Origin: Alphaproteobacteria bacterium
GTDB taxonomy: Bacteria; Pseudomonadota; Alphaproteobacteria; JAJTHO01; CANGXP01
Assembly (NCBI GenBank): GCA_947457935.1
Contig: CANGXP010000006.1
Location: forward strand, 1-61,309
DNA: 61,309 nucleotides
Reading direction: 5' to 3'
Positions 1-12,634 of the stretch are shown here, one piece after another. Position 1 is the first letter of the stretch; every line of letters starts with the position of its first letter. A program made the position numbers and the translations under genes. The notes beneath the pieces were generated by a model. That model had not been told where the DNA came from. It saw only the letters and a program-made list of their open reading frames with translations, and did no database searches.

Positions 1-28
1 CTTGTGGGAGAGGGCTGGGGTGAGGGGG
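1..28. repeat. Edge fragment of a dispersed G/C-rich repeat
   Basis: This stretch matches, with one mismatch, the last 28 bases of the 36-bp repeat at 11605-11640 (core TGGGGTGAGGGG). It lies downstream of flgH and is cut by the window edge. It shows that the repeat bounding the DUF559 gene is dispersed in this genome and not peculiar to the ruv locus. Confidence 0.75.
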
Positions 29-10988: not shown

Positions 10989-11480
10989 ATGATTATTATT
11001 GGACTTGACCCCGGCTTGAACAACACAGGATGGGGCATCGTTGATTTTCAGAGTGGGAGGCTGTCGTTTGTGGCGGCGGGGGTGATCAAGCCCAGCAGCG
11101 ATTTACCAATGGCAGACCGCCTTAAAGGGTTATTTGCAGGAATTTTACGTGTGTTAGAGGAGTATCAACCACACACGGCGGCTGTGGAAGAAACCTTTGT
11201 GAATACCAACCCGCGCTCTGCCTTGATTTTGGGGCAGGCGCGCGGCATTGCGTTGATGACCCCCGCCTTTTATGGTATCCCTGTTGCGGAATATGCGGCA
11301 AACACGGTTAAAAAAGCGGTGGTGGGCGCGGGACATGCCGATAAAACACAAGTGCAGGCGATGATACGTTTGTTGTTGCCAACAAGCGGCACGCAAGGCG
11401 CGGATGCGGCAGATGCACTGGCGGTGGCGATTTGTCATAGTCATTTTGCAAAGACGGCGAACAGGTGGAAGGCGGGGTGA
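10989..11480 (+). CDS. ruvC: Holliday-junction resolvase RuvC
   Basis: Endonuclease that resolves Holliday junctions after RuvAB branch migration. The four acidic active-site residues are visible at the family positions: D7 in GLDPGLNNTGWG, E67/E68 in AVEETF, D139 and D142 in GADAADALAVA. 163 aa is normal for alphaproteobacteria. An AGGGG ribosome site stands before the ATG. It is followed not directly by ruvA but by a 500-bp insertion of paired repeats and a DUF559 gene. Confidence 0.97.
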   Translation: MIIIGLDPGLNNTGWGIVDFQSGRLSFVAAGVIKPSSDLPMADRLKGLFAGILRVLEEYQPHTAAVEETFVNTNPRSALILGQARGIALMTPAFYGIPVAEYAANTVKKAVVGAGHADKTQVQAMIRLLLPTSGTQGADAADALAVAICHSHFAKTANRWKAG

Positions 11481-11501: not shown

Positions 11502-11537
11502 CCCCTCACCCCAACCCTCTCCCACAAGGGGAGAGGG
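11502..11537 (+). repeat. 36-bp repeat, copy A
   Basis: Begins CCCCTCACCCCAACC and ends ACAAGGGGAGAGGG. It is the exact reverse complement of copy B at 11605-11640. It carries its own short internal palindrome (CCCTCTCCC ... GGGGAGAGGG), so each copy can fold alone, and A with B can form a 36-bp stem around a 67-bp loop just downstream of ruvC. Confidence 0.9.
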
Positions 11538-11604
11538 AGTACCCCCGTATCGCTTGCTAAGACTTTTACAAGAACGCCCTGCACTAGAGGGCATAAAGAA
11601 AGCC

Positions 11605-11640
11605 CCCTCTCCCCTTGTGGGAGAGGGTTGGGGTGAGGGG
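11605..11640 (-). repeat. 36-bp repeat, copy B
   Basis: Perfect inverted copy of 11502-11537, ending five bases before the DUF559 start codon. Its G-rich end (TGAGGGGG) lies where a ribosome-binding site for DUF559 would be, so the repeat seems to supply the translation signal. Confidence 0.9.
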
Positions 11641-11645
11641 GAATA

Positions 11646-12023
11646 ATGAACTCTTTGCAGGATAAAGCGCGGAAATTACGCCGTAATCAAACAGATGCCG
11701 AGAGATGGTTGTGGCAACAGTTGCGTGCAAAACAACTTGGCGCAAAATTTCGCAGGCAGCAGTCTATACCACCGTATATTGTTGATTTTGTATGTTTTGA
11801 GCATAAGTTGATTATTGAAGTGGACGGCGGACAGCATGACGCGCAACAACAGTATGATGCACGAAGAACAAAATTTTTGGAACAACAAGGGTATCATGTC
11901 GTGCGGTTTTGGAATAATGATGTATTTGAGAATAAAGAGGGTGTTTTGCAGCATATTTTGACGTGTATTAGGGAGAAAATCCCTCACTCCAATTCTCTCT
12001 CACAAGGGGAGATGGAAGCATGA
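11646..12023 (+). CDS. DUF559 (Vsr-like, PD-(D/E)xK fold) nuclease-like protein
   Basis: Small DUF559 protein, a family related to very-short-patch repair endonucleases. Typical landmarks are present: RRNQTDAERWLWQQLR, then a core with D47 in YIVDFVC, E58 and D60 in LIIEVDGGQH, and VVRFWNNDVF. The acidic residues and the QH pair fit a PD-(D/E)xK-type active site. No function has been firmly assigned to the family. It breaks the usual ruvC-ruvA adjacency. It starts directly after repeat B, and its last residues are translated from a decayed copy of the same repeat (11981-12015). Its TGA overlaps the ATG of ruvA (ATGA), so ruvA translation may depend on it. This looks like a repeat-associated mobile unit. 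Confidence 0.85.
   Translation: MNSLQDKARKLRRNQTDAERWLWQQLRAKQLGAKFRRQQSIPPYIVDFVCFEHKLIIEVDGGQHDAQQQYDARRTKFLEQQGYHVVRFWNNDVFENKEGVLQHILTCIREKIPHSNSLSQGEMEA
11981..12015 (+). repeat. Degenerate repeat copy C inside the DUF559 3' end
   Basis: Matches copy A at 30 of 35 positions in the same orientation, so it is inverted relative to copy B. Together B and C bracket the DUF559 gene as imperfect inverted repeats. The copy is translated as the C-terminal residues of the protein, and its AAGGGGAGA segment (about 12004-12012) sits at ribosome-binding distance from the ruvA ATG at 12020. Confidence 0.85.
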
Positions 12024-12634
12024 TAGCACAACTGAAAGGACTGGTGGACGCAATTTTAAGCGATGCGGTGATTCTAGATGTACACGGCGTGGGCTATAAA
12101 GTGTTTTGCTCGCAAAAAACCTTGAGCAACCTCCCTGCGTTGGGGGAAGGCGTGGTGTTGCTGATAGAAACACACGTGCGGGAAGACCATATTCACCTTT
12201 ATGGCTTTGCCAGCGAAGAAGAGCAAGCATGGTTCTTAAAACTCTCCAGCGTACAGGGGGTGGGCAACAGAACGGCGTTGTCTATTTTGTCGGTGTTGTC
12301 GCCGTTTGACCTGCAGCAAGCCATTGCCGCGCAAGATAAAACCAGCATCACCCGTGCAGATGGGGTGGGGGCAAAAATTGCGCTCAGGATTGTAACAGAA
12401 TTGAAAGATAAGGTGGTGGCGATGCCAGCAGGGGTGGCGGCGTTGCGGCGCGGGAATGCGCCAGTGTCGAATCAACCACAAGGCGTGTTTGAGGATGCGG
12501 TGTCGGCGTTGGTGCATTTGGGGTATCAACGGAGTGCAGCGGTGAATGCAGTTGGTGTTGCGTTAGCAAAAGTAAATAATACCAGTGATATGCAAGAAAT
12601 TATTAAAGTATCCTTACAAGAATTGAGTGCATAG
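12020..12634 (+). CDS. ruvA: Holliday-junction branch migration subunit RuvA
   Basis: DNA-binding subunit that forms tetramers on the four-way junction and loads RuvB. The N-terminal OB fold ([15 protein letters not shown]) is followed by two helix-hairpin-helix motifs ([16 protein letters not shown] and [19 protein letters not shown]) and a flexible link to the C-terminal three-helix RuvB-contact domain (about 155-204). 204 aa is normal. The ATG overlaps the stop of the inserted DUF559 gene, and the ribosome site lies in repeat copy C. Confidence 0.97.

Follow-up and report, generated by a model that had tools for sequence, protein, structure and literature searches.

Genes of the DUF559 nuclease family are flanked, in many bacterial phyla, by copies of a short palindromic repeat set in a fixed orientation, and the genomes that carry the repeat tend to carry the gene. 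This linkage is strong, general and orientation-specific. The best reading of it is a selfish pair that resembles REP/REPIN and RAYT but relies on another type of nuclease. The linkage itself is directly observed, and mobilization is what we infer from it. In the fuller version of this reading, which we hold to be probable, DUF559 and the repeat form a two-component system in which the repeat hairpins would serve as the cognate ends of the nuclease. Judged by its sequence, the repeat is the known BOX-C element of E. coli, also called the PIT element or intrastrand triplex motif (TM). Catalogues of these repeats go back to the 1990s; in vitro they form triplexes, and in genomes they mark loci that are unstable. 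To our knowledge, no enzyme mobilizing them was known before.

The starting point was the ruvC-ruvA junction of an alphaproteobacterial contig, analysed as one stretch of 61,309 nucleotides (the window). The features concerned are the following.

10989..11480, plus strand: ruvC (Pfam PF02075)
11502..11537, plus strand: TM/BOX-C copy A, left arm of a 137-bp unit, an exact inverted match to copy B, folding as a hairpin
11605..11640, minus strand: TM/BOX-C copy B, right arm of the same unit, also bracketing the DUF559 gene on its left
11503..11639, minus strand: complete 137-bp paired-repeat unit (REPIN/MITE-like), recognized by spacer homology and folding
11646..12023, plus strand: DUF559 (YcjD-like) nuclease gene, 125 aa (Pfam PF04480, E 1.3e-43)
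11981..12015, plus strand: TM/BOX-C copy C, decayed, encoding the protein tail and containing the ribosome site of ruvA
12020..12634, plus strand: ruvA, whose start overlaps the DUF559 stop (Pfam PF01330/PF14520/PF07499)
1..26, minus strand: TM copy, truncated, at the edge of the contig

A first-pass annotation had described an exact 36-bp inverted pair (A and B) upstream of the DUF559 gene, a 30/35 copy (C) inside its 3' end and a further copy at window position 1. All of these were found again at the coordinates listed, the pair being exact over 36 bp with its outer C/G and the last copy being cut by the contig edge. Copy B ends 6 bp before the DUF559 ATG. Copy C, 86% identical to A, lies within the DUF559 open reading frame; as had been claimed, it encodes the tail of the protein and supplies the ribosome site of ruvA, since its AAGGGGAGA stands just 5' of the ruvA start, the purine-rich stretch ahead of that start is part of the repeat, and the ruvA ATG overlaps the DUF559 stop (ATGA). 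The notion that the repeats bracket the gene holds for B and C; A and B together make up a separate 137-bp hairpin element instead. The earlier description of the repeat was thus accurate, but its identity as BOX-C/PIT/TM and the dispersed nature of the A/B pair had been missed. The 35-mer occurs twice in the window at up to 3 mismatches, against 0 occurrences in 100 shuffles. As a single strand, copy A folds into a hairpin of -10.8 kcal/mol (z -3.2), and copy C has lost it (-3.6 kcal/mol, z 0.0). Copy C is old and decayed and the A/B pair is fresh, so the insertion of the DUF559 gene looks older than that of the pair beside it.

The motif of the window repeats, CCCTCNCCC-loop-GGGNGAGGG-N3-GGGNGAGGG and its complement, is that of BOX-C/PIT/TM (Hoyne et al.; Holder et al., 2015, PMC4666352), which is likewise dispersed across hundreds of genomes (TM is reported in >260; PMC4666352), often as inverted doublets. 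Scored over the three 9-nt blocks CCCTCNCCC / CCCTCTCCC / GGGAGAGGG, separated by short loops on either strand, copies A and B reach 27/27 and copy C 23/27 (consensus from PMC4666352). Matches in Rfam stayed below threshold and concerned unrelated families. What differs is the company of the repeat: it was known only as an orphan, and the present analysis ties it to DUF559. Full-text literature searches, with subscription papers outside their coverage, returned no mobilizing nuclease linked to DUF559, ycjD or BOX-C, no description of a link between DUF559/YcjD and repeats, and no experiment on DUF559 together with TM.

Three sets of DUF559 loci were surveyed: the 80 best matches in all bacteria, taken from GTDB contigs (set 1), the 29 top alphaproteobacterial matches (set 2), and 40 others, mostly from further down the alphaproteobacterial list (set 3). 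TMs were sought as CCCTCACCC-N1..5-CCCTCTCCC-N1..9-GGGAGAGGG with at least 22/27 matches, a pattern that detects canonical copies only and found nothing in shuffled loci; an earlier version with a fixed 3-nt spacer was dropped because the window genome's own copies escaped it. Absence of repeats near DUF559 genes elsewhere would have spoken against the proposal of a linked unit. A TM was present within 300 bp of the gene in 63/80, 23/29 and 29/40 loci (115/149 in total), sets 1 and 2 being drawn from rankings that used likeness to TM-linked proteins or the family score. With TM-like inverted repeats included, the figure is about 132 of 150. TM density was 2.4-3.1 per kb within 300 bp of the gene versus 0-0.085 per kb beyond 700 bp, a difference of some 30-40 times. 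The loci came from Proteobacteria, Spirochaetes, Chloroflexi, Nitrospirae, Levybacteria and Melainabacteria, among others. Among loci free of canonical TMs, 15/33 have gene-flanking inverted repeats scoring at least 14 (null maximum 13 in 450); the sequences of several resemble diverged TMs.

The arrangement is as regular as the proximity. The nearest copies read TM(-)-gene-TM(+) in 58 of 71 doubly flanked loci, which is also the plan of copies B(-) and C(+) in the window. The upstream TM lies at a median of 32 nt before the start codon, and the open reading frame runs into the downstream TM in 85 of the 102 loci that have one. The 'SPHPNPLPxGERE' tails of DUF559 proteins, a common oddity of annotation, are in this way explained as translated repeat DNA. 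In 21 of 30 cases, versus 2.3 expected, the best match of a flanking TM was a TM from the genome it stands in; the comparison took in 13 hand-picked genomes and part of their TM copies, and by analogy with REPs and RAYTs its result may be taken as a sign of cognate sets. Two loci depart from the usual layout. In Neisseria gonorrhoeae (L241, 1998-2695), the TM pair 3' of the DUF559 gene lies in three tandem repeats with a 281-bp period. In Sinorhizobium (L244, after 1824), a DUF559 gene that lacks a TM has on its 3' side a palindromic repeat (CCCCCTCTGCCCTGCCGGGCATCTCCCCC... type), which may be a rhizobial (RIME-like) counterpart of TM.

Repeats of the same kind are dispersed through the window genome, whose 1.83 Mb were searched in full. 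Pairs of the A/B type, always (+) then (-) and 115-116 bp apart, occur on contigs C2, C6 (that of the window), C30, C32, C53 and C56, and one more lies at the edge of contig C37 with its outermost base cut off. Seven copies of the 137-bp unit (that of the window and those on C2, C30, C32, C37, C53 and C56) can be aligned end to end and share both arms and spacer, with a mean column identity of 89%; the window copy is inverted relative to the other six. The unit folds as one long hairpin (-52.4 kcal/mol, z -11.7) and is a REPIN- or MITE-like element. Since contigs C6, C13 and C37 end in TM copies, the assembly probably hides more of them. A second DUF559 gene (C10:1104-1424, minus strand) repeats the anatomy of the first: a repeat remnant stands just upstream with the same GGGGAATAAT joint as in the window, and the open reading frame terminates inside an oppositely oriented repeat at its 3' end. 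On contigs C30 and C56 (L012, L019), two of the 137-bp units are nested in a larger repeat with inverted ends of about 31 bp (GGTGGTGCTAAACGCGTAATGATT...AATCATTACGTTTTCAGCACCACC).

The resemblance to REP/RAYT that had been noted at the outset extends to architecture, phyletic linkage and the matching of repeat variants. In both, one small nuclease gene is bracketed by two inverted palindromic repeats (here in the window and in the 58/71 loci), the repeats are dispersed as inverted doublets of REPIN/BIME type, mostly extragenic (here the seven doublets), and repeat variants match the enzyme's own genome (the 21/30 cases above) (PMC2817692, PMC3116915). The enzymes differ: RAYTs are HUH Y1 transposases of IS200/IS605 type (Y1_Tnp, PF01797), whereas the window protein belongs to PF04480, a PD-(D/E)xK/Vsr-like nuclease family. 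TM is moreover a G/C-rich, triplex-type hairpin without the GTAG/CGTC head, and the DUF559 gene often reads into its downstream repeat. By this comparison, DUF559 and TM would work like a REP/REPIN-RAYT pair, and because the enzyme class differs they are not a member of that group.

Linkage at the locus is matched by co-occurrence at the level of genomes, where shared descent was partly corrected for. In 288 Alphaproteobacteria, a strong DUF559 match was found in 35/51 TM-positive versus 30/237 TM-negative genomes (OR 15, p 2e-15), and the 35 joint genomes compare with 16.7 +/- 2.7 expected when labels were shuffled within genome-size classes. A reversed control pattern had no match in any of these 288 genomes. 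Among 238 other Pseudomonadota the association was again strong (table 26/14/8/190, OR 44, p 7e-18); permuting DUF559 labels within families gave 8.9 +/- 2.0 expected versus 23 observed, reached in 0 of 20000 permutations. The association has exceptions on both sides. Some genomes carry DUF559 without canonical TMs. Conversely, TMs are numerous in G044 (35 copies) and G410 (130), where a strong DUF559 match is lacking: the nuclease may have been lost there, another enzyme may be at work, or the assembly may be incomplete.

The same genomes bear on the idea that another enzyme, such as a RAYT, mobilizes TMs and that DUF559 genes are passengers. E. coli does carry a RAYT-family protein alongside its BOX-C repeats, and in architecture TMs are like REPs (PMC2817692). 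However, the RAYT family PF01797 was unrelated to TM presence in the 288 genomes (OR 1.3, p 0.56), the window genome has no RAYT (PF01797) match, and the describers of TM never found activities providing mobility near it (PMC4666352). RAYT as the mobilizer is largely refuted, and the passenger hypothesis as a whole is very improbable.

Sites with and without the gene were compared at two junctions. Had the window gene been a vertically inherited part of the ruv operon with repeats beside it by chance, it should be general in relatives. Of 27 other readable ruvC-ruvA junctions in relatives, 23 were empty, 2 held unrelated genes and 2 held DUF559, the last in G016 and G053, which belong to other families and bring the occupied families of Alphaproteobacteria to three. 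In G016 the downstream TM likewise encodes the tail and provides the purine-rich stretch before ruvA. In a FastTree phylogeny, the window protein did not group with the L050/L053 pair; a more careful tree with an AU test did not reject a single clade for the three ruvC-ruvA proteins (p-AU 0.50). The presence of the gene at this junction in three families, together with a possible single origin, is what vertical inheritance has in its favour. Against it stand the 23 empty junctions, the bracketing of DUF559 by repeats at unrelated sites across phyla, and shuffles that yield no such repeats. As a general account it is refuted, and we give it almost no credence; it is possible only for the age of the window insertion. 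The unrelated genes at the two other filled junctions are one in G049 (L051), an HD-type phosphohydrolase by appearance, and another at L048.

At the second junction, the carA-carB gap, a DUF559 gene with a TM pair is present in G263 and G039 and absent from their congener G166, in which 6 nt (TCAATC) separate the carA stop from the carB start; this polymorphism rests on three genomes and is not polarized as gain or loss. A second unit of G263 is absent from G166 and has left a remnant in G039. No target-site duplication was evident at the carA-carB and G263 sites compared, nor was a precise excision recognized. In the two congeners with a filled gap (L150, L263, L265), the flanking genes are nearly identical and the DUF559 genes and TMs strongly different, a pattern in the sequences that points to replacement, or else to rapid co-divergence, at a single site.

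E. coli K-12 offers a familiar example. TM number 9 lies at 1,351,204-1,351,239 (PMC4666352) and the DUF559 gene ycjD at 1,351,407-1,351,760 on the minus strand, which puts the repeat about 170 bp beyond the 3' end of ycjD. That 3' end itself contains a decayed TM, which gives the tail RRSPSP; in strain KE47 this copy is nearly intact (26/27). The gene is missing from its usual place in about 2000 of 5375 E. coli genomes. The three of these inspected (UTI89, O157:H7 and Nissle; L236-L238) were rejected as clean excisions, having an efflux gene cluster there instead and the TMs gone. Candidate empty sites at TM doublets fared no better: for pair 12+13, ST131 has a 75-bp deletion between CCCTCTCCC direct repeats and strain C a wholly different intergenic region, and pair 10+11 is missing along with ygfF. 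Variation at TM sites in E. coli takes the form of deletions between internal direct repeats or of exchange of the entire region, not of clean loss, which is a point against the proposed mobilization.

The protein is by sequence a member of the DUF559/YcjD family (PF04480; 147.8 bits vs a cut-off of 20.6), whose E. coli representative had been predicted to be related to Vsr (PMC1189080) and whose Neisseria member has a structure (3hrl). Its AlphaFold model has a mean pLDDT of 84 with a confident core, and the TM-encoded tail (residues 114-125) is disordered (pLDDT <50). Foldseek matched the model to NGO0050 (3hrl), to the homing endonuclease I-Bth0305I (3r3p) and to Vsr (1vsr), and none of 48 sequences varies at E19, D60, H64 or D71. 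The predicted fold is thus of the Vsr/EDxHD homing-endonuclease type, with E, D, H and D placed on a PD-(D/E)xK-type core, in agreement with the enzyme class first assigned. Pairwise dN/dS was about 0.07-0.22 for the more divergent pairs and 0-0.47 for very close pairs, the latter unreliable from few changes; the low values indicate that the nuclease is kept functional by purifying selection. Anti-phage defence models gave weak matches only, which covered the nuclease portion of large multi-domain models, and the protein does not qualify as a defence gene on that basis.

These structural matches speak for the main rival, a homing-type gene drive. DUF559 would then be a free-standing endonuclease that cuts TM-less alleles and is copied in by repair, with TMs as its boundaries or targets and distant TMs spread by other means. 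Among functional structural matches from outside the family, I-Bth0305I ranks first; it shares the fold and the invariant E, D, H and D positions (E-D-x3-H-D); the recurrence of DUF559 at ruvC-ruvA in three families and the occupation of carA-carB in 2 of 3 congeners also fit. However, DUF559 proteins, at about 110-125 aa, lack the added DNA-binding domain of I-Bth0305I (PMC3943268), are not intron-encoded and are carried with dispersed repeats, and their insertion sites vary widely among genomes. Homing alone leaves unexplained both the dispersed TM pairs with conserved spacer and the genome-wide co-occurrence of TM and DUF559. We consider it unlikely.

Another rival is a host repair function, with DUF559 as a VSP-like mismatch- or structure-specific nuclease, TMs as its hot spots or substrates, and the linkage arising from repeat-rich, rearranging spots. 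The Caulobacter DUF559 protein VsrA acts in the damage response, and this Vsr-like repair role needs no mobility, which counts against our model (PMC12907096). Purifying selection on the nuclease and the instability linked to TMs (PMC4666352) are compatible with repair as well. It would not explain the fixed TM(-)-gene-TM(+) orientation, the 30-40 times higher TM density, or why about two thirds of genomes lack the gene; nor would a repair gene have to bring along cognate copies of the DNA it acts on. We think a purely host function quite unlikely.

The selfish pair could be pictured as follows. The autonomous unit would be TM(-)-DUF559-TM(+), often with one more TM(+) ahead, and the non-autonomous unit two inverted TMs around a short spacer, as in the 137-bp unit and the TM doublets of E. 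coli. The nuclease would recognize the TM hairpin in single-stranded or extruded DNA and nick or cut at it, and repair would copy or move the unit to new, mostly intergenic sites; TM pairs would in this manner be spread in trans and the nuclease's own gene in cis. Substrate, cleavage chemistry on TM and transposition are here what we infer. Since TM strands contain a purine-rich, ribosome-site-like stretch and are translated as an innocuous tail (xTPTPLPxGEx), the unit can be tolerated inside an operon with the next gene still translated.

DUF559 is a strong and testable candidate for the agent that spreads BOX-C/triplex repeats, E. coli included, and a function may thereby be given to a domain still named DUF559. 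Whether these proteins are the long-missing mobilizing enzymes of BOX-C/PIT/triplex repeats in bacteria at large, a REP-like system of the Vsr/EDxHD class with YcjD as its E. coli representative, we regard as an even chance; such a nuclease may recognize a hairpin or a triplex. The link to a single small, widespread nuclease family, one that E. coli K-12 also carries, makes the origin of TM repeats directly testable. If the proposal is true, a new enzyme class would join the short list of those that drive miniature repeat populations in bacteria.
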